Below are positions 4,273-62,060 of a stretch of DNA of 64,000 nt, piece by piece (position 1 is the stretch's first letter; the number at the start of each line of letters is the position of its first letter). The stretch is from Sthenelais limicola (Eukaryota > Annelida > Polychaeta > Phyllodocida > Sigalionidae): NCBI GenBank assembly GCA_942159475.1, contig OW804094.1, forward strand, positions 22,667,323-22,731,322, in the 5' to 3' direction. The position numbers and the translations under genes are program-made. The notes under the pieces are model-generated. The model worked only from the letters and a program-made list of their open reading frames with translations. It searched no databases and was not told where the DNA came from.

Positions 4273-4571
4273 ACAAGTAGGTTGCTGTTCCATTTATTCC
4301 AGGATCAATTAATTTCCATAATTTATTATCAATTTGTAGATTAGGCGTTGGAGGATATGATTAACAGAGTCAAAACAAAATTAAAAGCTTTTTTTTCAAG
4401 ATACATGAAGAACCAATTCACTCTTAGTAAGGAACCAAACAGAAAAGGCTAATGCCTTTTCCAGACTTTGGTTCATATTATGATAATCCCAGTGGGTACA
4501 CTTTCAAAAACCATGCTATGAAAGCAGATTCAGAGATAATTCTATTTGCAATAATAGATATTTGCCTCAGA

Positions 4572-4804
4572 ATCAGATTTTCAGAAAATGTACAAGTCAA
4601 CTTCACCAATCTTTTCAAATAGCCCACATTTCAGAGGTAAATAAAGTTCAAAATACAGTTTAACCTAACCAACCAGATTGCTAGAATCAATCCAATGCCG
4701 AATATACTCGAATTTACCTAGTATTGACCAAATTGCAGCCAAATTTTGCAGAATTTACTAAATGTGTACAGCTGCCGATTGTACATTTTCGGAAAATTTG
4801 ACCC
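4572..4804 (-). mobile_element. MITE-A copy
   Basis: Full length; left tip eroded to AATCAGATTTTCAG. Confidence 0.82.
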
Positions 4805-5484
4805 AAAAGTATCAGAAAGTCACGAGATGTACACCTAGCAGCCCTAAACCACTTTCCAAAATTTCCAAATTTAGATGTTAAAGATGCATTCGCTACAAAA
4901 TCGACCAAAATATTTTTCCAATTCTTCTATTACACAATGATAAACAGTAATACGTAGTATGTTAAGTTATACACAGCAATGGAAAATGTTGACAATTTTG
5001 AGGTCCTGATGCCAAATATTTTCTGATTAAGAGAAAAGGTAGGGGCAAATGGTAGAAAGCTTTATTTTTGTTTGAAGTCAGCTGAGGCTGTAGCTTTAAT
5101 CCTTCACTAACTGTGCAGTGAAAGTGTCACTCATCCCCGTTAGGACATAAACCAAATGTGCCAACGTCTTTATAAGCTTCACAAACATTTTTTTCTCATT
5201 TGCTTTGTATTGCGCCACCCCTGGAAACTACAGTTTATCAATGTTATCAATTTTACTACCTGGGGCATGTGAAAAACCCTAGTTTGGGATTTGAACTTCC
5301 AGAATAAATAAAGTTTTAAAAAAAAATGTCTACCCGTGACACACGGGGGGCTTCTAGTGGAATAATAATATTGTGAGGATAGACAGAATGAAGAAGATAT
5401 AAATGTGTATATACAAGATGAGGCATAACCTTAACATTCTATGTGCCTTCTCTTGATGGTGGCAGGGAAAACTACCAACCAGGT
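4805..5484. other. Repeat E 3' traces and an AATAAA/poly(A) end
   Basis: 5045-5102 resembles the repeat E tail. AATAAATAAAG followed by an A-run at 5303-5325 looks like a retroelement 3' end. No gene. Confidence 0.35.
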
Positions 5485-5700
5485 GGGTCAGATCTTCAGA
5501 AAATGCACAATCGGCAGATCTATACATTTGGCAATTTCTGCTGAATTAGACTGACAAATTGTCAATACAGTTTATCTGGGTATATATTTGGTATTGCCTT
5601 GATTCAAAACATCTGTATGGTTATGTTGAACTGAATTTCTAACCTTATTCTTGTTTTAAAGTAAGATTATTTGAGAATATTTGTGGAGGTGGAGGTGGAC
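5485..5700 (+). mobile_element. MITE-A copy, right end degenerate
   Basis: Starts GGGTCAGATCTTCAG; the last 35 bp are replaced by a GGAGGT/ATAT tract. Confidence 0.75.
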
Positions 5701-5806
5701 ACATATATATATATACATGTGTAATGACCCTGATGTAAAGTAACGACTCTTCCCAAGTTGGAATCGAACCCCAAACCTCTTGATTGTTTGTTTGCTGTTC
5801 GTACAC

Positions 5807-6041
5807 GGGTCAAATTGTCAGAAAATGTACAATTCACCTTCACCAATCTTTTCAAATAACCCGAATTTCAGACGAAAATAAAGTTCAAAACACAGTTATA
5901 TCTAACCAAACAGATTGCTAGAATCAATGCAATGCCAAATATAATTGAATTTACCTAGTATTGACCACATTGCAGCCTACTTTAGCCAAATTTACTGAAT
6001 GTTTTCAAATGCCAATTGTACATTTTGTGAAAATCTGACCC
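5807..6041 (-). mobile_element. MITE-A copy
   Basis: Full length, flanks ACAC and ACAT. Confidence 0.83.
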
Positions 6042-6463
6042 ACATAGTGATTGCGTCGCTCAACCTCATCCCAAATCTAGCACTGGTCACCCATGCATAT
6101 TGCCATGAAGCTATTCGTTGAAACATTTTTTTCTAAATGACACCACCAATTGTAATTCTAGCTGTACATGACGCAATAAATGGCCCTCATTATTTTACCA
6201 CACCTCAGTTCATAACTTTTGCTTTACTCAAACTGCATGGCTGATACAAGTGTCCCTTTAGCTGGGCGCAATGGTGTTTTCCTCTGTTGTACTTTTTATT
6301 CACTGCCTTGTGCAGTCCAGGGGCTATAAAACCATGGGCAGAGACTAAACAGATTAATAACCTCTATTTCGGGCCAATTCGGTGCACTGTTCGAGCATTA
6401 TAAGTCTACACCGAACAGTGCACCAGCAGTCCCTCAATGTCGGTTATTAATCCCTTAGTATAT
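6042..6463. other. No feature supported
   Basis: Contains a short inverted pair GTGCACTGTTCG / CGAACAGTGCAC at about 6380-6424, recurring near 29404; otherwise nothing. Confidence 0.4.
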
Positions 6464-6674
6464 GGGTCAGATTTTCAGAAAATGTACAATTCAACTTCGC
6501 CAATCTTCTCAAATAACCCAGATTTCAGACGAAAACAAATTCAACCTAGCCAGACAGATTGCTAGAATCAATGCAATGCCAAATATTCTCGAATTTACCT
6601 AGTATTGACCAAATTGCAGCCTATTTTGTAGAATTTACTAAATGTGTATTGTGCATTTTCTGGAAATCTGACCC
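6464..6674 (-). mobile_element. MITE-A copy with internal deletion
   Basis: About 25 bp shorter than full length; flanks ATAT and ATAT. Confidence 0.83.
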
Positions 6675-7313
6675 ATATGTCAAGATATATATATTTAGGT
6701 TGATCTTACCACTACATATTAATCAATCTATAGTACGTCTCATCATTAGTAAAATGATATGCAATTGAATGTCAATAGTAATTTATGCTCTGTATATGTC
6801 ATTGTACATATAGTGCATAATCCCTGTTGTCAAGACTTATTTAATTCTTCCAATCTCCACTAGGTGGTTACCTGGGAGATATAGGAAGATCGTATCATAC
6901 ACTAACACCACCTATGTACGAACAAGACACCTAAAGACAATAACCATTCAAACAATGACCATCCAAACGTATCATAGCAAAAGGTCAATTATCATTAGTA
7001 TCATAATTAATAATCCCACAGGAAAAACACATAGATCTAATCATTTACCATTTATATATACCAATATTTACAGAATTTTAAAAAAAAGAAACGGTCCACC
7101 ATTACATACCGATGCTGCAGTAACGATTGTTCTCCCTTGGTATCATTATTATTATTACTATAACTATTACCCTATTCTTCACAACCTTTATGCAAAAGCT
7201 GAAATTGAATCAGAATATCCTGCATGTACTGTTGTTGATATATATCATGTATTGATAATTTCTATACAGATATTCATACACTAGCATGTCAAAAATGGTG
7301 GTAACAATATTGA
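6675..7313. other. Probable 3' UTR or downstream region of the cyclase gene
   Basis: Lies downstream of the cyclase stop on the minus strand. A variant signal ATTAAA is at 6845-6840 on that strand; no AATAAA was seen. Plus-strand frames here are AT-rich and unconvincing. Confidence 0.3.
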
Positions 7314-7479
7314 CTATAGGTGGGTTGGTGGTGAGAGTAGGAGGACTAGTGTTAAACAAAGAGTAGCTAGATGGGTAAGGTGTGTATGTTGGGAGGCGCT
7401 CCGTCTTGGAGCCGAGCTACTCGAGCCTTGACACTCAGGGTTGTCGCTGCTGTCAACACATTGTAAATATCGGACAGCT
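7314..7479 (-). CDS. ADP-ribosyl cyclase, last exon with GPI-type C-terminus
   Basis: The acceptor is TTTCTATTTCAG, and the frame runs to TAG at 7316-7314. It encodes AVRYLQCVDSSDNPEC, aligning with CD38 FLQCVKNPEDSSC, the last disulphide pair. It then has a Ser-rich stretch (GSSSSAPRRSAS) and a short hydrophobic end, LATLCLTLVLLL, before SPPTHL and the stop. A small-residue linker plus a C-terminal hydrophobic tail with no cytoplasmic domain is the layout of a GPI-anchor signal, as in BST1/CD157, so an ectoenzyme on the outer cell surface is inferred. No clear AATAAA is visible soon after the stop on this strand. Confidence 0.87.
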
Positions 7480-7582
7480 CTGAAATAGAAACAAGAAGAA
7501 TATTATTGTAAATACATTGTATAGAAATATTTGCCGTGATATGTCCAGGCTGAGATTTTCTACTTTGGAATTTCCCACCTAG

Positions 7583-8372
7583 AAACTAACCCTGAAATGT
7601 ACCACCCAGAAAACGTACACCTTGAAATGTACCACCCAGATGAACTCCCACCTTGAAATATACCACCTAGATAAACTCCCACCTTGAAATATACCACCCA
7701 GATAAACTCCCACCTTGAAATGTACCACCCAGAAAACTTCCACCTTAAAATGTACCACCCAGATAAACTCCCACCTTGAAACCTACCACCCAGATAAACT
7801 CCCACCTTCAACCATACCACCCAGAAAACTTCCACCTTAAAATGTACCACCCAGATAAACTCCCACCTTGAAACCTACCACCCAGATAAACTCCCACCTT
7901 CAACCATACCACCCAGAGAACTTTCACCTTGAAATATACCACCCAGAAAACTCCCACTTTGAAACATACCACCCAGAGAAATCTCACCTTGAAATATACC
8001 ACCCAGATAACTTGCACCTTGAAATCTACCACCCAGAAAACTCCCACTTTGAAACATACAACCAAGAGAAACCTTACCTTGAAATATATCACCCAGAAAA
8101 CTCCCACTTTGTAATATACCACCCAGAAAACTCCCACTTTGTAATATACCACCCAGAAAACTCACATATTGAAATATACCACCCAGAAAACTCCCACTTT
8201 GTAATATACCACCCAGAAAACTCCCATATTGAAATATACCACCCAGAAAACTCACTTTGAAAACTACCACCCAGATAAAACTTCCACCTTGAAATATACC
8301 ACCCAAAGAAACCTTACCCTGAAATCTACCACCCAGAAAACTCCCACTTTGAAATATACCACCAAGGAAAGT
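7583..8372 (+). repeat. Minisatellite, 30-31-bp unit, about 26 copies
   Basis: Units of the type CCACCCAGAAAACTCCCAC plus TTTGAAATATA. It lies in the last intron of the cyclase gene, 100 bp from the final acceptor. Long frames on both strands are artefacts of the near-multiple-of-three unit. Confidence 0.95.
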
Positions 8373-8586
8373 TAACGGCCAGAATATCAACTGTCTATCG
8401 TATGTACAACAAAGGAAGAGATTATAAATATTTCTAATTATCATATTTTAGGTTTAAACTATTCACGAAATAAGGAGTTTTACTCTCGCAGAATAAAAAC
8501 ATGTATTCTGAGGGTAGTTCCCTGTCATAGCAAAACAAGAACCTCCATTGTTTATAGTGATTCGGGAATGAATTATTTCTACTTAC

Positions 8587-8673
8587 GGAGGATCATCCGT
8601 GCACTTATATTGAAGGCCTTTGGCAAGAACCCTTTTTTCTAACTCAATCAGACTGCCTGTTCCACAAGATTCT
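8587..8673 (-). CDS. ADP-ribosyl cyclase, sixth recognised exon
   Basis: The 87-nt exon has acceptor CTCTTTCAG and donor TCC|GTAAGT. It encodes ESCGTGSLIELEKRVLAKGL followed by QYKCTDDP, aligning with the CD38 segment containing LCxxPTIxELESIISKRNIQFSC. Two conserved cysteines are present. The 919-bp intron upstream consists mostly of one MITE-B and one MITE-A copy. Phase 2 exit is completed by A of the last exon to give Pro. Confidence 0.88.
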
Positions 8674-8698
8674 CTGAAAGAGTTATGTAACATAATTT

Positions 8699-9090
8699 TT
8701 ATGTGTTTCAGGAAAATGAGTCATAAGTCGCAAAAAGGATATTTTTCAAAGTGATTTATTTATAAGATATCTTTGTTGGAATATTCTAATTTTTGGGGTA
8801 CTTCATGCTGCTAGTAACAATAATACGTGTATACAATTTCAAGGCAATGTATTAAATATGTCTGTGCATTTCTAAGGTCATTTTATGGAGTATATTTAGG
8901 TACTTTATAAGTAATTATCGACCCAACAATATTAATAACTTTTTTTTTCAAAAATAAAGATATCAAATTTAAAATATAGAAACACTACTTAGATGTCCTA
9001 TTGTTTACTACCATTAGAATCGGCTTGATCTCATCTTTTCAAATATGATAATATCTGAAAATCGATATTTTGCGTTTCCATGTATAACGC
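8699..9090 (+). mobile_element. MITE-B copy, right tip lost
   Basis: Left end ATGTGTTTCAGG intact, right end breaks after ATATTTTGCG. It begins 25 bp upstream of a cyclase splice acceptor. Confidence 0.8.
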
Positions 9091-9685: not shown

Positions 9686-10175
9686 CTGAAAGAACAACAT
9701 TAATTCATCAGTTTCTCAAATAACAAAATTGATTCATAAGTTTCTGAAAGAACAAAACTAATTCATAAGTTTCTGAAAGAACAAAATTAATTCATAAGTT
9801 TCTCAAATAACAAAACTAATTCATAAGTTTCTGAAAGAACAAAATTAATTCATAAGCTTCTGAAAGAACAAAATTAATTCAAAGGTTTCTCAAATAACAA
9901 AACTAATTCATAAGTTTCTGAAAGAACAAAACTAATTCATAAGTTTCTGAAAGAACAAAATTAATTCATAAGTTTCTCAAATAACAAAATTAATTCATAA
10001 GTTTCTGAAAGAACAAAATTAATTCATAAGCTTCTGAAAGAACAAAATTAATTCAAAGGTTTCTCAAATAACAAAATTAATTCATAAGTTTCTCAAATAA
10101 CAAAACTAATTCATAAGTTTCTGAAAGAACAAAATTAATTCATAAGTTTCTGATAGAACAAAATTAATGTATAAG
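9686..10175 (+). repeat. Tandem array of 28-29 bp derived from a splice acceptor
   Basis: About 17 units of GTTTCTGAAAGAACAAAATT plus AATTCATAA, some with CTCAAATAACA instead. On the minus strand each GAAAGAAC-type unit reads as a pyrimidine tract with AG (TTTTGTTCTTTCAG), matching the true acceptor at 9686-9700. Confidence 0.9.
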
Positions 10176-11157
10176 TTTCAAGCCAACGGTTGTTGGTTTG
10201 CTATCACTAGATTTTAAGTAGCGTATTGAATGGACAACTATAAAGGATCATGCGAAATATGTAAGAAAAAAATATAAAATAAAATTCAGACAATGAAATT
10301 GTTCAGCGAAGGTAACATCAGCTTCATTGAAATGTTAGTTGAAATCAGACAAATAATAAAACTAACAATGAGGGGCGCCAGAAATAAAAGTGACAAAATA
10401 AAAAGAAAAGAAAAAAAAGAAGAAAAAAAAGAAATAAAAGTGATGCTGCAAAAGAGATTCGATTTGAAAAATATTTTTATTCAGGACTAAGGACATCACT
10501 GATGCTATTCTCAGAATTGCCTGATGTTACACAAAATTAATACAATACTTTAGAACATACTCTACGAGATGACATTGCAGAAGTTAATAGTTATATACAG
10601 AAATAATCTAAATAATACACCAATTAAAAAGGAGAATGATTAATTAAAAGTTTAAAGAAGAATGGAATTTCTTTCTTGATTTCCCAGGTTAATAACCACT
10701 CTTTCTATAATTTGAAACTCAGGAATAAATAGAATGTTGTGAAGGAAAAAAAAGAGTTTCATTATTTCTCATCCTTTGCACTGAACTTGCACCGTACTTG
10801 TATTTATTTCAATCTCTGTGATGTGACGGTGAAAATAAACCCCCCAAAATATTGATGTGTTGCAATCACCCTTCTCAAGGGTCTAACGAATATGATTGTT
10901 TCGATTAAAAACAAATGTCAGTAACACGAAACTGACTAGCAGTGTCAAATGACTTATTAAATATTAATGTTTATCAAACCTATAAATATTTGTATTGTAC
11001 ATTGAATCTGAAACGAAAGGTTTGTATTGTTTTTGACTTGAGTCTGTGGGAATATCATTGTACCACCAAAACCAGCTCAATAAAACTTCTTTTAAAAAAA
11101 ACTATTTCTCATCGTGCACTGGCAGTTGGCCAACGCTTAATTGCAAGTAAACCATAT
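10176..11157. other. Intron sequence with retroelement 3' end traces
   Basis: TTTTTATTCAGGAC at 10476 and CTCAGAATTGCCTGATG resemble 50990-51055, probably a LINE 3' end on the minus strand. CAATAAAACTTC with an A-run at 11079-11102 is a second one on the plus strand. No exon found. Confidence 0.35.
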
Positions 11158-15382: not shown

Positions 15383-16143
15383 CGAGTGAGTGAGATTGGT
15401 TGCTTTATGCCTTTATCAACACATTTAATATGGTTATATCAAGGGCGGGAGAGCTGAGAGTGGGTGAGTGAGATTGGTTGCTTTATGCCCTTATCAACAC
15501 ATTTAATATGGTTATATCAAGGGCGGGAGAGCTGAGAGGGAGGGAGTGAGTGAGATTGGTTGCTTTATGCCCTTATCAACACATTTAATATGGTTATATC
15601 AAGGGCGGGAGACCTGAGAGGGAGTGAGTGATTGAGATTGGTTGCTTTACGCCCTTAACAACACATTTAATATGGTTATATCAAGGGCGGAAGAGCTGAG
15701 AGGGAGTGAGTGAGTGAGTGAGATTGGTTGCTTTACGCCCTTATCAGCACATTTAATATGGTTATATCAAGGGCGGAAGAGCTGAGAGGGAGTGAGTGAG
15801 TGAGTGAGATTGGTTGCTTTACGCCCTTATCAGCACATTTAATATGGTTATATCAAGGGCGAGAGAGCTGAGAGGGAGTGAGTGAGTGAGATTGGTTGCT
15901 TTACACCCTTATAAACACATTTAATATGGTTATATCAAGGGCGGGAGAGCTGAGAGGGAGGGAGTGAGTGAGATTGGTTGCTTTATGCCCTTATCAACAC
16001 ATTTAATATGGTTATATCAAGGGCGGGAGACCTGAGAGGGAGGCAGTTTATGATCATACCCAGGAAAGAGATAGAGAAGAAAGGAGAGAGAGACAGAGAA
16101 AAGAGACAGAAAGGCACTCAATGGTCTTATCCAGGACCAGGTT
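15383..16143 (-). mobile_element. CACT-tailed SINE with its tail end amplified into a tandem array
   Basis: On the minus strand this is the SINE seen at 32.6, 45.4, 52.7 and 61.7 kb. About seven units of 90-120 bp (GAGTGAGATTGGTTGC...TTAATATGGTTATATC...GAGAGCTGAGAGGG) repeat the 3' portion before a single body at 16043-16143. It is flanked by TTTGATTCCCG and TTTGAATCCCG, a target duplication inside element D. So the array grew from one inserted SINE. Confidence 0.7.
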
Positions 16144-21644: not shown

Positions 21645-22136
21645 CTACCCATTTAGTATGTGTCTTTTTAATAGAATGTTAAAGTAGTTTTTGTCGTTTA
21701 CATTTCTTAGGTCCGCTGGTAAGGAGTTCCAGGTACTAGACATAAAGTTTATATAACAATTTCGTTCTTTCTCCGTTTTTGGTGGGAAACCCTGAAGTGT
21801 CGGAGCGTTCGCCTGGCGTGTGGCCCGAGGAGGGGCCGTACCTTTATTTTTTAAGTACACGTTGTCATGAGCTATTTTGCTAAGATTAAATTTCATACGG
21901 GCACTGATATTCATTACTCTCGCTTCATTATACATGTTAATGGTTGGAGTCAATTGATCACATTGCAATGCCACTCTTAATATTTTATTCTGAAGTATTT
22001 GTAGTTTCTTATTCTGGGTTGTGGTTAGGGGGGATAGGCTAAATAAACTATAGTCAAAGATAGACATGAGTTTGGATTTAGCTATGATTATGGCTGCTGA
22101 TTTGGTCAAAAAAGGCCTAATTTTTAAAGATGTAAA
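21645..22136 (-). pseudogene. Detached C-terminal part of retrotransposon ORF2
   Basis: This frame continues ORF2 after the 8-bp duplication, reading IFTSLKIRPFLTKSAAIII, then LQNKILRVALQ and FMSSTWNSLPADLRNV. The KLQNKILR...WNSLP pattern is typical of the C-terminus of CR1/L2-like reverse transcriptases. It has no ATG start of its own near the junction. It ends in TAG at about 21645. Confidence 0.75.
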
Positions 22137-24493
22137 GATTTAAAGATGTATAATTTCTGGTTTATTTGACTTATGAGGCTATTGTATTGGGTTACCATTG
22201 TAGTACCGTTATCAAACATTACACCGAGGTAACAATATTTATTTACTTGTTCTAATTGTACGTCATTCAGTCTTATGACAACCTTGGCCCTGTCGACCTT
22301 TTTCTTTCTACCTGACACCATAATTTTTGTTTTTTTTTCATTTACCTTTAACTTGTTACTTGTGCACCACGAATTAAATTTCTTCAGATCATCATTTAGT
22401 TTTGTACATCCTTGGTCTAAATCTTGCGTTGAGGTATATAGTATGGTATCGTCTGCGTATTGCAGTATATTGGAGTTTAAGTTTACATGCTTCAGATCAT
22501 TAACATATAGCAGAAATAGGGTGGGGCCTAGAATTGACCCTTGGGGTACACCATAGTCTATGTTCTTCATATCAGATTCATTTGCATTCAGAATCACTTT
22601 TTGTTTTCTATTTGTTAAGTAGGAGTCGAACCAGAGCGTTATAGGGGGAGGGAGGCCACAGTCAGATAGTTTCTCCATTAGCACTTTAGGAACCACAGTG
22701 TCAAACGCCTTACTTAGGTCTATGAAACATGTTAGCATGTAGTTATTTTTGCTTTCCGATACATTAAGGTCAGTTATATATTCTGCGAGCGCCTCAGTAG
22801 TAGAGTGCCCTGTCTGGAAGCCAAGTTGTCTTTTGCTCAATATATTGTTTTCAAGAAGGTAGGATTTTAACCTCTCCGATACTAATTTTTCAGTGATTTT
22901 TCCAGCTATGTGGCATATGGATATTGGTCTGGTGTCTGAGGGTGAGGCCGGGATTTTTATTTTGGGTATAGGGGTGACTCTGGCTCTCTTCCATAGATCG
23001 GGGAAAATACATGTGTCTATCGACCTATTTATTAATAATGTGAATTCAGGTAATAGTATGGTAAATACATCCTTGTATATTCTGCTGTTGATATTGGGAC
23101 AGCCAGAATTTTTGTTACAATCAATTTCATTTATCTTAGTCAAAACATCATTTTGTGTGAATGGAACATTTCTCCAAGGAATAGGAGTATTTTCTGGGTA
23201 TCTTATCCGAGTGACCATATCAATTTCTTTGTTGATTTTAGATCCGACATTACAATAAAAATCATTTATTTGCTGACTAAGCTCTGCCCCTTCAATTTGT
23301 TTACCATTTATTGTGAGACTGTTAAACGATGGTTTATCTTTGCCTGACACCTCTTCAATAACCGACCAAAATTTCTTGGAATCCTTTTTATACATCCAGA
23401 GCAGGTTTTTATAGTAATCTGCCTTTAGCCTGCGAATAGTTTGGTTACAAATTTTTCTACAGTTTCTAGCTATTTTTACATCTTCCATGTTTTTGCTATT
23501 TTTTGCCTTTTTGTAAGCTTCTTCTCTGTTCTTATGTAATATGGATAGTTCTTTTGTGTACCATTTAGGTTTCTCAGGTCTATTTTTAAACTCTTTATAG
23601 GGAGCAATTCTATCAACGCACGAGAGGACATTATTGTACATCAAATCCCAACCTTCATTGACATCCTGGGCAGCATGAAAGCTCTCCCAGTCTCTAGACG
23701 AAATAACATTTTGAAGTCTTTCATAATTATAATCTTTCATATTTCTCCCCGTGAAATTTGACTTTATATTAGAGTTACATATCTTCTTAAGTATTGTGAT
23801 TACCGGTTGGTGATCAGACAGCGAGTATGATATGGTGTGGGTCAATCGATCAATATTGGATCTAATCATGAAGATGTCAAGGATAGAGTCTTTTTGTATG
23901 CCGAACCTAGTACACCCAGTCTTTTCGATCACAAAGCTGTGTTTGTTTACAAAGGCATTCAGGCTTTTACATTTGTTATCATCTAACATTAAATCAATAT
24001 TTAAGTCACCACATATGATGATATTTTTATCATTCCTTACAATCCAATTGCTTAGTATTTGCTCTAGTTCACCAATACAATTCATAACGTTCCCATTAGG
24101 AATCCTATAGGCCATTATTAGTTTTAGTTTCGGTACATTCTCTTTATACACTAGTAGATTCAGTATTTCACTATCAGGAGACATAATATTTTCATCCTCT
24201 TTCGAAACAAATTTGAAGTCATTTCTTACGTAGCAACAGATCCCCCCCCCTCGCTTGGGCAGGGGTCTATCTAGCCTTATTAGGTTGTATCCTTTACAGT
24301 GAATTAAACTATCAGGAATCAATTCATTTAACCATGATTCAGTAAAGACTATTACCTCTATATTCAGACTCATGATTTCATTTCTAACTATATCAATTTT
24401 TGGTAGTAAAGATCGAATATTGTATTGGAGTATCTTTATTCCTTTCATGCTTTTAATGTCAGACCAGTCTTTATCACTTATGTCATTATTCAT
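22124..24493 (-). CDS. Retrotransposon ORF2: endonuclease and reverse transcriptase (frame broken at its end)
   Basis: From ATG 24493 the frame gives 789 aa; an open extension upstream has only GTG. The APE-type endonuclease covers about residues 18-240: LQYNIRSL, VFTESWL with the catalytic Glu, CGDLNID and SDHQP. The reverse transcriptase covers about 500-750: FIDLSKAFDTV, YGVPQGSILGP, LLYVNDL and the catalytic QYADD. This is the enzyme for target-primed reverse transcription. The frame stops early at HL*, where an 8-bp tandem duplication (TCTTTACA) throws it out of phase; the rest of the C-terminus continues at 22136-21645. Both catalytic domains are free of stops, so the copy is young. Confidence 0.92.
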   Translation of the reverse strand: MNNDISDKDWSDIKSMKGIKILQYNIRSLLPKIDIVRNEIMSLNIEVIVFTESWLNELIPDSLIHCKGYNLIRLDRPLPKRGGGICCYVRNDFKFVSKEDENIMSPDSEILNLLVYKENVPKLKLIMAYRIPNGNVMNCIGELEQILSNWIVRNDKNIIICGDLNIDLMLDDNKCKSLNAFVNKHSFVIEKTGCTRFGIQKDSILDIFMIRSNIDRLTHTISYSLSDHQPVITILKKICNSNIKSNFTGRNMKDYNYERLQNVISSRDWESFHAAQDVNEGWDLMYNNVLSCVDRIAPYKEFKNRPEKPKWYTKELSILHKNREEAYKKAKNSKNMEDVKIARNCRKICNQTIRRLKADYYKNLLWMYKKDSKKFWSVIEEVSGKDKPSFNSLTINGKQIEGAELSQQINDFYCNVGSKINKEIDMVTRIRYPENTPIPWRNVPFTQNDVLTKINEIDCNKNSGCPNINSRIYKDVFTILLPEFTLLINRSIDTCIFPDLWKRARVTPIPKIKIPASPSDTRPISICHIAGKITEKLVSERLKSYLLENNILSKRQLGFQTGHSTTEALAEYITDLNVSESKNNYMLTCFIDLSKAFDTVVPKVLMEKLSDCGLPPPITLWFDSYLTNRKQKVILNANESDMKNIDYGVPQGSILGPTLFLLYVNDLKHVNLNSNILQYADDTILYTSTQDLDQGCTKLNDDLKKFNSWCTSNKLKVNEKKTKIMVSGRKKKVDRAKVVIRLNDVQLEQVNKYCYLGVMFDNGTTMVTQYNSLISQINQKLYIFKSLHL

Positions 24494-25157
24494 TTGTGTA
24501 TCTAGTATACTGAGTAATGAGTCGATAATAGGGTAGGCGGTCAGATGGTCGCCAGACGACACATCCTACCGTCACCCAAAACCTTCTCATTCGATCCTCT
24601 ATTAGATGAAACAGCATGCACTGAGTGTAAGGCCTCAATACAGGGGAATATATCAAATAACATAACATAACTGACCAGGTATCCAGGGAGAGTCTGTAGT
24701 TCATTGCAGATGCACAGTGTGTCCGGGTGAGCTCGCTCAGATAGGTAATATTATTAGAGAAAGATTCATAGGTGTCCCTTATGGTATAGTCCAGCGATAC
24801 AAGGTATGAGTATGAGCGGGTGCTCGTGTCAGACCGCGATAATTTATGTAAAACTAGGTTTAGGTAGTAGTCCCTATTTGGTCTGTGTACTTCGATAGTA
24901 CCTATGTTCGTTGGAGTGTAAGGGCAGGTGTATAAGAATATAGGGAGCGCAGGTGAGTGCCAAGGGTAAGTGGGTGCAGGTAACCCAGTAGCCCGGGTGA
25001 GTGGGTCGCCAGACGACACCTCCAACCTATAGGCCACTAGGTCCCCCACCCCAGGCCCCCGGCACATGAACACAAACAAGGTTTGTAAACAAAACATGGG
25101 ACGGATCACGTGGAGCTGGAGTATGTAATCAATTTGGGTTTCCATTGTGTGGATCAT
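24486..25157 (-). CDS. Retrotransposon frame of unknown function, 223 aa
   Basis: The frame starts at ATG 25157 inside the end of the SGNH frame and ends TAA at 24488-24486. The ATG of the EN-RT protein is at 24493, so start and stop are interleaved as ATGAATAA. The protein is rich in Tyr, Leu, Ser, Thr and Arg and has no recognised domain. VSSGDPLT here and VSSGDHLT at the head of the next frame come from two copies of TGTCGTCTGGCGACC. It is long for a chance frame in AT-rich DNA and is positioned as a translational coupler, but it could still be a spacer that happens to be open. Confidence 0.35.
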   Translation of the reverse strand: MIHTMETQIDYILQLHVIRPMFCLQTLFVFMCRGPGVGDLVAYRLEVSSGDPLTRATGLPAPTYPWHSPALPIFLYTCPYTPTNIGTIEVHRPNRDYYLNLVLHKLSRSDTSTRSYSYLVSLDYTIRDTYESFSNNITYLSELTRTHCASAMNYRLSLDTWSVMLCYLIYSPVLRPYTQCMLFHLIEDRMRRFWVTVGCVVWRPSDRLPYYRLITQYTRYTNE

Positions 25158-25836
25158 GATGGTAGTTGGTAATCTGTTTTATCCAGGTATCACGCACAAC
25201 AGAGTCAAAGTGGACTCCGTCTGGCAGTCGTTGGAGGTGATGACGAAACCTTTTACAACCCTTAGCGTGGACTTTATTAATCAAATGGATGTGTCTTACA
25301 CCCCTAGATCTATTCAGACCTTGCAGATTCTGGTTTATCCTGATTATGGCCGTATTTAGCATGTCTTGGTGTGGTGATATTGGTATGACATTATTCGCTT
25401 TTGCGATATCTATGCCTATCAGGCCGCCGAAGCTAACATTACATCTGTCAGATATGCAGGCAAGTTTATCAATCGATTGCGTGTAAAGTGAGGTCATGTA
25501 TTCCACCAGTTCATTCTCATTGTACTTTATGAGAGAAATCGCCCGAGTATCTCTATCCATAACAGATAAATTGCATATGCCACCAATGATCAGAATATTG
25601 GCCGGTCTAAGCGCATGAAATAGTGATATAGCTTCAGAGCATAGGTAATCCAACTTCGCACCACTATATACAAACACTCTAATATTGAGTTTCCTAAGGC
25701 GATTGTCCAGGTATTTGCCCCTCGAATCAGTAATGACAAACGTGCTCATGATGATGGGCTTTCTGCTAGTCGTAGGATCCAAAGGTTCCTTCATGAACGG
25801 GGAAGTAGCTATCAGTGGCTTCAGTACGCGCTGCAT
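25129..25836 (-). CDS. Retrotransposon SGNH/GDSL-type esterase-domain protein
   Basis: There are three in-frame ATGs, at 25836, 25794 and 25749; the last, 16 nt after the NADAR stop, gives MSTFVITDSRGKYLD. Family blocks are visible: TDSRG with the nucleophilic Ser (block I), YSGAKLDYL (II), IIGGICNLS with the block III Asn, and DGVHFD carrying the Asp-His pair (V). SGNH esterase domains are known in ORF1 proteins of CR1-type elements, where they aid association with lipid or membrane. Here the domain is a separate frame rather than fused to ORF1. It ends in TGA at 25131-25129, overlapping the next frame by 29 nt. The block I Gly of GDS is Thr here. Confidence 0.75.
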   Translation of the reverse strand: MQRVLKPLIATSPFMKEPLDPTTSRKPIIMSTFVITDSRGKYLDNRLRKLNIRVFVYSGAKLDYLCSEAISLFHALRPANILIIGGICNLSVMDRDTRAISLIKYNENELVEYMTSLYTQSIDKLACISDRCNVSFGGLIGIDIAKANNVIPISPHQDMLNTAIIRINQNLQGLNRSRGVRHIHLINKVHAKGCKRFRHHLQRLPDGVHFDSVVRDTWIKQITNYHHDPHNGNPN

Positions 25837-26911
25837 ATGCGTAGTTCATGTTGTGATGTTGCCTGGCTACCGGCGGGTAACAATCACTGTTGTAGGAGAG
25901 CAATCTGTTTTCCATTACCTGGGGATCTGGTCTAGCCCTGTCGATGTAGGATTGTGATGTATTTCTAGGGCTATTTGCTCTTTTCGCCGGGTTGAAGAGA
26001 TAGTCGTCCCCACTCCTAAATCTCTTCCTTTGCTCTTGCATCGTATTCATGCGAGAGCTACCTGTGCCTCTCCCTTTTCCCCTGTTTCCGTTACCTCTCC
26101 TGCCTCCACCTTTATATTTGGATCTGGATTCTCTCTTGCTTGCATATGTGGCGGTAATCCCTTCTCCAGTGGCATTTGATACTGCATCTTCTCCGATTTG
26201 GGCACTCTCATCCTCGTTATCTCTATCTTGGGCTGATTCTGATGGTACTTTATCTTGAGTGGCCTCCACTGACAGCTTCTCTTTTCTGTGAGGGGAGTAG
26301 CTTGCGGATGGTTGGATGGTTTTACCCTGCGCATCAGTTATTTGGTAGTCTGCTGGTGTATATTGGGTTCCATCTATTAGGTAACGACGATAATCAGATA
26401 GTAGTTTTCCTACCATGTTGCCACCATTGTGTTTACCATCCGCAACTTCCTTCGAATTCAGAGTACTACCACAGGCCCAGAAGGGGCATTTGGTAGCTTC
26501 GTAGAGTGGTAAGTCTCCGGTTGCTATCAATTTATGTTGGAGGTGAGGGTTCTGTCGGAATTTTGCCTCGATTAAGACATTCATCACATTTAACTTGTCC
26601 TTGTCCCACCTGGGAGACGAGGACGCTTGATGTGATAGACTTTTCGCTTCTCTTGCATCGTGGCAGTCATAGACTTGCTTAGCTAAGTCTGGTCTTTTGG
26701 CTGCGTTAAAACGGGCATATTGATATGCCTGTTCTACTGAATGGAAGAGTAGTCCATTAATTTCTATGTCACTGGGGTAGAAATTTGAGAGCCAGCTATG
26801 TGATGAGTGGAAGTAAATCTTCCCATTGATGGTCTTGGTCTTTGCGTCAGATATCTTGTGTCCCTCTTTCAAATTCTCTAGTTCATCGTAGCGATAGGAT
26901 GAGCCCTGACT
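25766..26911 (-). CDS. Retrotransposon NADAR (YbiA-like) domain protein with basic RG-rich tail
   Basis: The open frame spans 26911-25766 with no ATG before the domain; from TTG at 26872 it gives 368 aa. Residues 27-165 match the NADAR fold: SNFYPSDIEINGLLFHSVEQ with the conserved Glu, AYQYARF, IEAKFRQNPHLQHKLIATGD, LYEAT, FWACG and GGNMVGKLLSDYR. NADAR enzymes cleave N-glycosidic bonds; known activities are removal of ADP-ribose from guanine in nucleic acids and hydrolysis of riboflavin intermediates. The tail (about 245-290) is Lys/Arg/Gly-rich (KYKGGGRRGNGNRGKGRG) and probably binds RNA. It overlaps ORF1 upstream and the SGNH frame downstream. Expression must use -1 frameshifting, a non-AUG start, or a fused ORF broken here. 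The domain call is strong; its role in retrotransposition is inference. Confidence 0.85.
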   Translation of the reverse strand, partial: SQGSSYRYDELENLKEGHKISDAKTKTINGKIYFHSSHSWLSNFYPSDIEINGLLFHSVEQAYQYARFNAAKRPDLAKQVYDCHDAREAKSLSHQASSSPRWDKDKLNVMNVLIEAKFRQNPHLQHKLIATGDLPLYEATKCPFWACGSTLNSKEVADGKHNGGNMVGKLLSDYRRYLIDGTQYTPADYQITDAQGKTIQPSASYSPHRKEKLSVEATQDKVPSESAQDRDNEDESAQIGEDAVSNATGEGITATYASKRESRSKYKGGGRRGNGNRGKGRGTGSSRMNTMQEQRKRFRSGDDYLFNPAKRANSPRNTSQSYIDRARPDPQVMENRLLSYNSDCYPPVARQHHNMNYAYAARTEATDSYFPVHEGTFGSYD

Positions 26912-27648
26912 CTAATACGATCCCTAATGATCTGGCAGTCATTGATACCCTTGCTCTTCAGGTGAGATTGTACAGTGCTTAGCATTTCCTTTCTCTCGAC
27001 AATTGGCTGGGGTAAATCGGCATTTAGATAGACTCTGTAGAATTGATCCGATTTGCTTAGAAGAGCTCTTCTGGAGTAATAGAAATTTCTTGCTGCTTCT
27101 CCACAGAGGCGTACTCTGATTATGCGGGAACTCATTTGTCGACGGTCAATACGTCTTGCAAAAATGACCTCCTGATCAGAAGTTCTCTGGTCTATATCTT
27201 TGAGGATGCGAATAGTCAACGCTTTTGTGTCTTCGTATCTAGTTTCTGTCGCTCCCGTGATTAGAAGATTCATTTTTCTATTTTCTATCTCAGACTCTAG
27301 GAGAATATTTTCCATTCTGATGCTATGCCTTTTCACTGCCATTAGCTCTCTTTCCATTGTTCTGTACTGTTCACATCGGGTCCTGTCTTTTTCTACTATT
27401 TCCGTCATTTTTTCTAGAACTTCTACCTGATTTAACTGGGTGAATTCCAAAGATTTTCGTAGCTCCTCAATAGAGCATGGATCGGTTTTAATCTTTGTAT
27501 CTTCCTTCGAATACAGTTTGTGTATGGGCATTGGATTAAGAGGTAATCCCTTGTCACGCAATAGGGCACGCTCCGTCGCCTCAGCGCTCGGGTGTGCAAA
27601 CAAATCCGGTTCCTGGTTGTTTGTATCCATTTCTGAATGCTCGGACAT
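26878..27648 (-). CDS. Retrotransposon ORF1: coiled-coil / RRM-like nucleic-acid chaperone
   Basis: The first ATG begins MSEHSEMDTNNQEP and gives 256 aa; a TTG eight codons upstream is also open. Residues about 55-115 are rich in Glu, Lys, Arg and Leu in heptad-like spacing and look like a coiled coil. Then NLLITGATET and VIFARRIDRR, IIRVRLCG and FYRVYLNADLP resemble the RRM and C-terminal domain of L1-type ORF1 proteins. Such proteins trimerise, bind the element RNA and act as chaperones in the RNP. The stop TAG is at 26880-26878. The next frame overlaps its 3' end by a few dozen bases in the -1 phase. Confidence 0.75.
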   Translation of the reverse strand: MSEHSEMDTNNQEPDLFAHPSAEATERALLRDKGLPLNPMPIHKLYSKEDTKIKTDPCSIEELRKSLEFTQLNQVEVLEKMTEIVEKDRTRCEQYRTMERELMAVKRHSIRMENILLESEIENRKMNLLITGATETRYEDTKALTIRILKDIDQRTSDQEVIFARRIDRRQMSSRIIRVRLCGEAARNFYYSRRALLSKSDQFYRVYLNADLPQPIVERKEMLSTVQSHLKSKGINDCQIIRDRIRVRAHPIATMN

Positions 27649-27705
27649 GATCGATAATGAGGTAAATGTCAAAATTTTCCGGAAAGAATCGTCTTTGCAC
27701 AGAAA

Positions 27706-28027
27706 ACCAAAGTCCTGATCATATGATCAACCCCCTCACCAGACTCCCTGTGGCGTTATCATGTTGGTGGGATGAAAATGATTGAAATCGCCTGGGTAGA
27801 TCTGGAGATATATGTGGATATGCACGGAGTGTGTTTAGGCACGTCCGTCTCTCTCTGCGTATATATCTCTTTTTGTTATTTATTTATTTATTTATTTATT
27901 TATCTTGTTGTTATTGTTGATACTTTTTATTATCATATGATACGCTTGGCGGGTCTAAGCTCCCTAGGTTACAGTAGGGAGGATTGCAAGACCTGCCGGA
28001 TCACCTCCATACGTTGGTTTAACATTT
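27706..28027. other. Retrotransposon 5' side or intron flank
   Basis: Includes a (TTTA)n run at 27876-27903. The exact 5' end of the retrotransposon cannot be placed; part of this may be its 5' UTR. Confidence 0.35.
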
Positions 28028-28427
28028 GTGATGTGTTTCAGGAAAATGAGTCAAAAGTCGCAAAATTGATATTTTTCAAAGGGTTTTTTCACAGGATCTC
28101 TTTATTGAAATGTTTTGATCTTTAGGGGGTCTAGCCCTTATAGTCATATGGATCTATACAACAAATTTCAGGACATTGTATTAAATATATTCTCGCGTTT
28201 GAAGGCCTTCAGATGGAGCATATTTAGTTACTTTACTTTACCCACCCAGAAACATTGCACACTTTTTTTTTCAAAATTAAAAATATCAAACTTAAGATAT
28301 AGAAATACTTATTAGGTATACAGTGTTTACTATCATTGGAATCCGCTTGATCTCCTCTTTTCAAGTATTGTGATATCTCAAAATCCATATTTTGCGACTT
28401 ATGACTCATTTACCTAAAACGGATCAC
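28028..28427 (+). mobile_element. MITE-B copy
   Basis: Full length, GTGATGTGTTTCAGG to AAAACGGATCAC. Confidence 0.86.
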
Positions 28428-61660: not shown

Positions 61661-61915
61661 GTATGGCCATAAAGTGCCTTTCTGTCTCTTTTTCTCTGTC
61701 TCTCTCTCCCTTCTTCTCTATCTCTATTTCCTTGGTATGATCATAAACTGCCTCCCTCTCAGCTCTCCCACCCTTGATATACTCATATTAAATGTGTTGA
61801 TAAGGGCGTAAAGCAACCAATCTCACTCACTCACTCCCTCTCAGCTCTCCCGCCCTTGGTATAACCATATTAAATGAGTTGATAAGGGCGTAAACCAATC
61901 TCACTCACTCACTCA
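61655..61915 (+). mobile_element. CACT-tailed SINE with a second partial tail
   Basis: Full copy to 61836, then a repeated CTCAGCTCTCCCGCCC...TCACTCACTC segment to 61915, a first step toward the array seen at 15.4 kb. Confidence 0.75.
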
Positions 61916-62060
61916 CCCACCTCCCCCTTGTCCTCCACCCCTCCTCCCCCGCCTCCCCTCCCCTCCTCCTCTTCCTCCCCATCCCCTTCACCACCTCCTT
62001 CCCTTCTCCCTTGCCTCCTCCCCCTCTCCCTCCCCCTCTCCCACCTCCTCCCTCGCCATC
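61916..62060 (+). repeat. Pyrimidine-rich tract
   Basis: CCTCCCC-type low complexity. Confidence 0.85.

Follow-up and report, generated by a model that had tools for sequence, protein, structure and literature searches.

NADAR domains in the ORF1 proteins of an old LINE family of the polychaete Sthenelais limicola

The Sthenelais limicola genome (1.13 Gb) contains a large, old family of animal LINEs whose ORF1 protein includes a NADAR domain that is apparently kept by selection, which suggests that the elements need it. The copy described here lies in a 64-kb stretch of contig 1 (64,000 nucleotides, hereafter the window) and is a young, now broken member of this lineage. The original prediction that this LINE encodes a true NADAR domain stands, and the domain proves to be a stable, selected part of the lineage; the accompanying statement that no LINE with this cargo had been described is outdated, since a 2025 report (PMC12477816) notes NADAR in the ORF1 proteins of several LINE families from oyster, there filed as Tx1. 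LINEs with NADAR are therefore already a known kind, and that report is the one paper in the literature found that describes the domain in retrotransposons. New here are the VPQGS motif of the reverse transcriptase (RT), the co-inheritance of NADAR and RT, the selection on the domain and the copy number.

The window copy

The NADAR-bearing frame of 381 codons runs from stop to stop on the minus strand (26911-25766), and the expected number of such open runs in the 64-kb window is about 4e-7. The plus strand over the same interval carries numerous stops. The frame had been correctly located, with its strand left unstated, and had been taken for a separate second frame of an intact-looking LINE. 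Neither part of that description holds. In a contig-5 copy, which aligns over 6502 bases at 99.2% identity, a single 653-codon frame spans ORF1 and NADAR, and the endonuclease-reverse transcriptase (EN-RT) frame of the window copy is shifted near 22125-22150, inside a short tandem repeat. Three places on two other contigs encode a 99-100% identical protein in 653-codon frames, one of them with an internal stop. Given these near-identical copies with a single frame, the split between ORF1 and NADAR is damage of the window copy. The contig-5 EN-RT frame is uninterrupted across the shift point of the window copy and is itself broken at other points. The repeat at 22125-22150 has an 8-base unit, which makes slippage a likely cause of the RT frameshift.

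Table 1. Features of the window copy (positions are those of the window)
Feature	Position	Strand	Remarks
ORF1p N-terminal half	26878..27672	-	open frame; in-frame ATG at 27648
ORF1p C-terminal half with NADAR	25766..26911	-	381-codon frame, separated from the N-terminal half in the window copy
NADAR domain (ORF residues 14-170)	26363..26833	-	
Gly/Arg-rich basic stretch	25973..26155	-	17 R+K, 4 D+E and 10 G per 61 residues
SGNH-like hydrolase frame	25129..25749	-	DSRG, block-II Gly and D-x-x-H conserved; block-III Asn varies
Open frame between SGNH-like and EN-RT frames, 230 codons	24486..25178	-	open in the window and contig-5 copies
Endonuclease-reverse transcriptase (EN-RT)	22124..24565	-	RVT_1 2.6e-37, Exo_endo_phos_2 3.3e-07
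EN-RT, C-terminal part (shifted frame in the window copy)	21645..22139	-	relative in locus L102 at 5.8e-27

The N-terminal half of ORF1p, which we take by resemblance to be of the coiled-coil/RNA-binding type, has no significant match in a Pfam search, and the Gly/Arg-rich stretch is modelled with low confidence. The endonuclease/exonuclease/phosphatase domain and the RT share one frame, both in the window and in locus L098. The 230-codon frame upstream of EN-RT has no Pfam match and no tblastn match across the 20 loci fetched from the genome. No clear target-site duplication between the flanks and no 3′ microsatellite tail were seen, the ends of the element being only approximate.

Several repeats lie in or around the element. 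Between the SGNH-like and EN-RT frames, 425 bases are bracketed by a 32-base direct repeat (84%; 24539-24570 and 24996-25027). At the 5′ flank lies a SINE-like repeat (28024-28200), to which the window has nine more long matches, of 158-178 bases at 77-85% identity, and several that are shorter. The window also holds tandem arrays of 30-base (7589-8370) and 29-base (9686-10179) units, and an 82-base tandem repeat at 15384-16047 and 61752-61916 whose units appear by eye to be mutual reverse complements.

Genomic copies and common descent with the RT

A genome search with the NADAR profile PF08719 returned 5561 candidates in a loose first pass; 150 of these were scored, all of which exceed the cut-off and 148 of which have no internal stop, so that the genome has at least 150 NADAR places. 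The original prediction had reserved the case that other copies lack the frame, and the 150 scored places speak against it. With the window protein as query the genome yields 113 matches, itself included, with identities between about 40% and 100%. Near-identical copies are dispersed, as in a LINE, and segmental duplication may be the source of single near-identical pairs. Between the window and contig-5 copies the stretches covering NADAR and the tail are separated by roughly one synonymous substitution and encode identical amino acids, a near-zero divergence which indicates that the family was copied recently.

Twenty loci of about 10 kb, all with frames of at least 382 codons, were picked by hand from the 150 scored rows and are thus no random sample. 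In every one of them NADAR sits in a long frame, and a relative of the window EN-RT lies downstream in the same orientation. An SGNH-like frame lies between NADAR and EN-RT in 12 of the 20 (none by profile in the remaining 8), and a relative of the N-terminal half of ORF1p is in frame with NADAR in 12 by profile (two weakly, at 4e-6), with none found by profile in 8. The SGNH-like frame has no Pfam match and its single-sequence structure model is useless; the DSRG motif, the block-II Gly and D-x-x-H, and with them the residues Ser, Gly, Asp and His, are present in 13/13 rows (the window and 12 loci), while the block-III Asn varies.

One locus, L102, has two tandem NADAR-bearing ORF1 units on the same strand (4273-8905), each followed by an SGNH-like frame, with one of the two NADAR domains partial. 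Stand-alone NADAR frames of 162 codons occur at L119 (849-1334), L120 (885-1370) and L123. Near the L119 frame there is a GIY-YIG frame on the opposite strand, and further frames that have no Pfam match and that, by their motifs, presumably resemble a Polinton/adintovirus DNA polymerase and packaging ATPase. The stand-alone frame may belong to another, second type of NADAR-bearing mobile element in the genome.

The window RT and those of 10 of the 20 loci, the ones that give the RT motif with YADD in one frame, carry VPQGS (the other 10 gave no row in the motif scan). None has the L1-type RQG at the VPQG position that would mark Tx1/L1. Tx1 belongs to the L1 group. CR1/L2-type LINEs such as ZfL2-1 have a VPQGS-type RT, and for the present elements the motif points to the Jockey/CR1/L2 superfamily rather than Tx1.

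RT divergence across families reaches 80% of positions. NADAR is co-inherited with the RT. Pairwise NADAR and RT distances correlate with r 0.96 over 21 loci and 0.92 over 12 hand-picked families of one row each, with 0 of 9999 permutations in either test, a pattern consistent with a single ancient acquisition and subsequent vertical descent. A single branch (100/99) of the RT tree, which is unrooted and for which the program warns of long branches meeting, separates the 13 rows with an SGNH-like frame from the 8 without. The NADAR tree is compatible with a single origin, at a support of only 89 and with no animal host NADAR gene knowingly included.

The nearest known elements resemble this family in different respects. 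The Crassostrea gigas "Tx1" LINEs of Repbase share with it a YbiA-type NADAR in ORF1p; compared by description only, they differ in being filed as Tx1, whereas the window RT is of the VPQGS type (PMC12477816). The same report describes Ectocarpus Gypsy elements (the Gypsy-12_Ec32 lineage) as another retrotransposon lineage with a conserved YbiA-type NADAR. The CR1/L2-type element ZfL2-1 is alike in having an SGNH-like enzyme as LINE cargo, but there the SGNH esterase is part of ORF1p (PMC3905857), whereas the present element has its SGNH-like frame apart from ORF1p, with a variable block-III Asn, and also carries NADAR.

Fold, pocket and selection of the NADAR domain

Each NADAR sequence block named in the original prediction, and the Gly/Arg-rich tail, is found in the frame. 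The window ORF scores 82.3 bits against the Pfam NADAR model (cut-off 35.1) and 83.0 against NCBIfam TIGR02464 (cut-off 73.7), the best NCBIfam model for the domain being the riboflavin-intermediate N-glycosidase. The domain has the YbiA fold, which it shares with the Phytophthora nicotianae NADAR (8bau, a structure solved with ADP-ribose) and with E. coli YbiA (2b3w) at 25-26% identity. Equivalents of Glu-43, Glu-125, Trp-89 and Trp-133 are present; Lys-50 is replaced by Arg and Asp-130 by Cys.

No match to the full ORF or its NADAR region appears in the protein database at E 0.001, and the NADAR domain alone gives five metagenome NADARs there. Among viral contigs the NADAR ORF and EN-RT find no relatives as single queries; an alignment of NADAR as query finds relatives encoded by 239 contigs, and the best 80 of these 239 contain no match at E 1e-3 to the RT, SGNH-like or ORF1 frame of the window. 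The 449 phage records that match NADAR indicate the breadth of the family only.

Active-site residues were placed by the alignment with 8bau and by PMC11543638. The genomic NADAR alignment has 38 rows, in which L081, L083, L084, L085, L087 and L088 are the same places as L089-L094, and matches shorter than about 110 residues, including the partial second NADAR of L102, are left out. E47 (equivalent to E43), K77, W89, E125 (equivalent to E125) and W132 occur in 38/38 rows, the six repeated places included. A Glu where P. nicotianae has E125, as opposed to Asp or His, defines the YbiA class (PMC11543638), and this class mark is likewise kept in 38/38 rows, again counting the six repeats. Two other pocket positions vary. 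That of Lys-50 (R54 in the window) has Lys in 64/64 viral and metagenome rows, and in the genome Lys in 16 rows, Arg in 20, Cys in 1 and His in 1; the phosphate-binding Lys is Arg in the window's subfamily. His and Cys stand at this position in L113 and L114, two related copies, which makes it looser than the glutamates. The Asp three residues before W132 (D130 of P. nicotianae) is Asp in 26 of the 38, Cys in 10 and Asn in 2, the Cys belonging to the window's subfamily, the window itself included. After W132 a Gly stands in 64/64 viral and metagenome rows, and 19 of the 38 genomic rows have Ala there. The window therefore lacks the canonical Lys-Asp pair (K50 and D130), and because other rows retain both residues, other families of the lineage keep the canonical pocket.

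NADAR is under strong purifying selection in working lineages. Between the window and ten genomic relatives pN is 0.000-0.24, and in nine of the ten pS is saturated (0.82-1.0). Twelve pairs were compared, with omega quoted only where it is defined, as many dS values are saturated. Where a dS above 1 is measurable (1.26-2.28), omega is 0.039 (L095/L096), 0.047 (L104/L105), 0.026 (L097/L082) and 0.036 (L113/L114). For two very close pairs omega is 0.084 and 0.137, from 3-4 changes each; in the remaining six dS is saturated, with pN 0.09-0.31 and pS 0.91-0.96. For L113/L114 omega is 0.041 in the domain versus 0.168 in the tail. The altered pocket of the window's subfamily is likewise conserved by selection.

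A possible role on the element RNP

What such a domain might do for a LINE is suggested by its place in the protein. The ORF1 protein presents, in order, a putative coiled-coil/RNA-binding region, the NADAR domain and the basic Gly/Arg tail; as ORF1p would coat the element RNA, the fused NADAR would stay on the ribonucleoprotein particle (RNP). Packaging of element RNA is what ORF1p is thought to do (PMC3905857). On the RNP the domain would hydrolyse N-glycosidic (ADP-)ribose adducts on guanine in element RNA, in nascent single-stranded cDNA or in nicked target DNA, and reverse transcription would go on unblocked by host ADP-ribosylation. The altered pocket of the window's subfamily may have shifted the substrate. 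We consider it plausible that ADP-ribose is taken off the element's RNA or cDNA; the full reading, that NADAR on the ORF1p RNP removes N-glycosidic ADP-ribose from guanine of the element's nucleic acid, is one we hold tentatively, with confidence a little short of even.

Chemistry of this kind is on record. Hydrolysis of guanine-ADP-ribose in DNA is known for NADARs of several classes (PMC11543638 and PMC11125620), and a Lys-to-Arg mutant of a DarT1-linked NADAR keeps this hydrolysis in vitro and loses rescue in cells (PMC11543638). On the side of the writers, the shellfish enzyme CARP-1 is reported to ADP-ribosylate guanine in DNA and is proposed to act in innate immunity (PMC8053099). The DarT-like host defence of the original prediction is weakened, a DarT search of this genome having found no match while its positive control was detected; a search for Scabin-like enzymes also found none, with a control that was equally silent.

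Binding without catalysis and soluble ADP-ribose products as the target are serious rivals. NADAR could be a non-catalytic module that binds ADP-ribose, NAD-type RNA ends or guanine-rich nucleic acid, or that helps to assemble the RNP. The Lys and Asp changes in the window's subfamily would suit such a module, as would the nematode protein SNA-3, whose NADAR domains work in an RNP context and in which one of the three lacks the conserved residues (PMC9303266). Against the hydrolytic reading stand these Lys and Asp changes and the Ala that replaces Gly after W132; the corresponding Asp of SNA-3 was one of those mutated as homologues of positions critical for the YbiA N-glycosidase (PMC9303266). 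Yet both Glu and both Trp are invariant in the rows examined, across RTs that differ by up to 80%, and we regard a purely binding role as rather unlikely. Alternatively, the domain could act on soluble NAD/ADP-ribose defence products or signals, or on damaged riboflavin-type ribosides, and not on the element's nucleic acid. The riboflavin-intermediate enzyme as top NCBIfam model points this way, and viral NADARs, phage ones above all, have been argued to act on soluble substrates (PMC9503650); the fusion into ORF1p beside a basic tail argues instead for a location bound to nucleic acid, and we hold soluble substrates to be fairly unlikely. That a single ancestor captured a NADAR gene by chance and handed it on as neutral baggage has nothing in its favour beyond the conditional standing of the function and is hardly credible, being contradicted by the selection test, with its low dN/dS and a domain more constrained than the tail, and opposed by NADAR and RT distances that rise together and by the invariant pocket residues.

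The role of NADAR in animals has been called an open question (PMC11125620). Other parasites provide a parallel to removal of ADP-ribose from element nucleic acid: positive-strand RNA viruses, which like LINEs are RNA-based replicators, also carry NADAR, and the viral domain is proposed to reverse host ADP-ribosylation of macromolecules (PMC9503650). There it sits in a polyprotein and no retroelement is involved, unlike the window element. With at least 150 NADAR places, a LINE context in all 20 of those picked, and a selected and structurally sound domain, this genome would allow a direct test of whether de-ADP-ribosylation of nucleic acid is required for retrotransposition. LINEs also join RNA and DNA viruses as carriers of NADAR. 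It is conceivable, though we think it fairly unlikely, that an ancestral animal LINE took an ADP-ribose eraser into its RNA-packaging protein before its radiation and has needed it ever since. If so, ADP-ribosylation of nucleic acid, on guanine of cDNA or RNA, would be an old anti-transposon defence in invertebrates, and subfamilies with an altered pocket like that of the window would be shifting substrate in an arms race.
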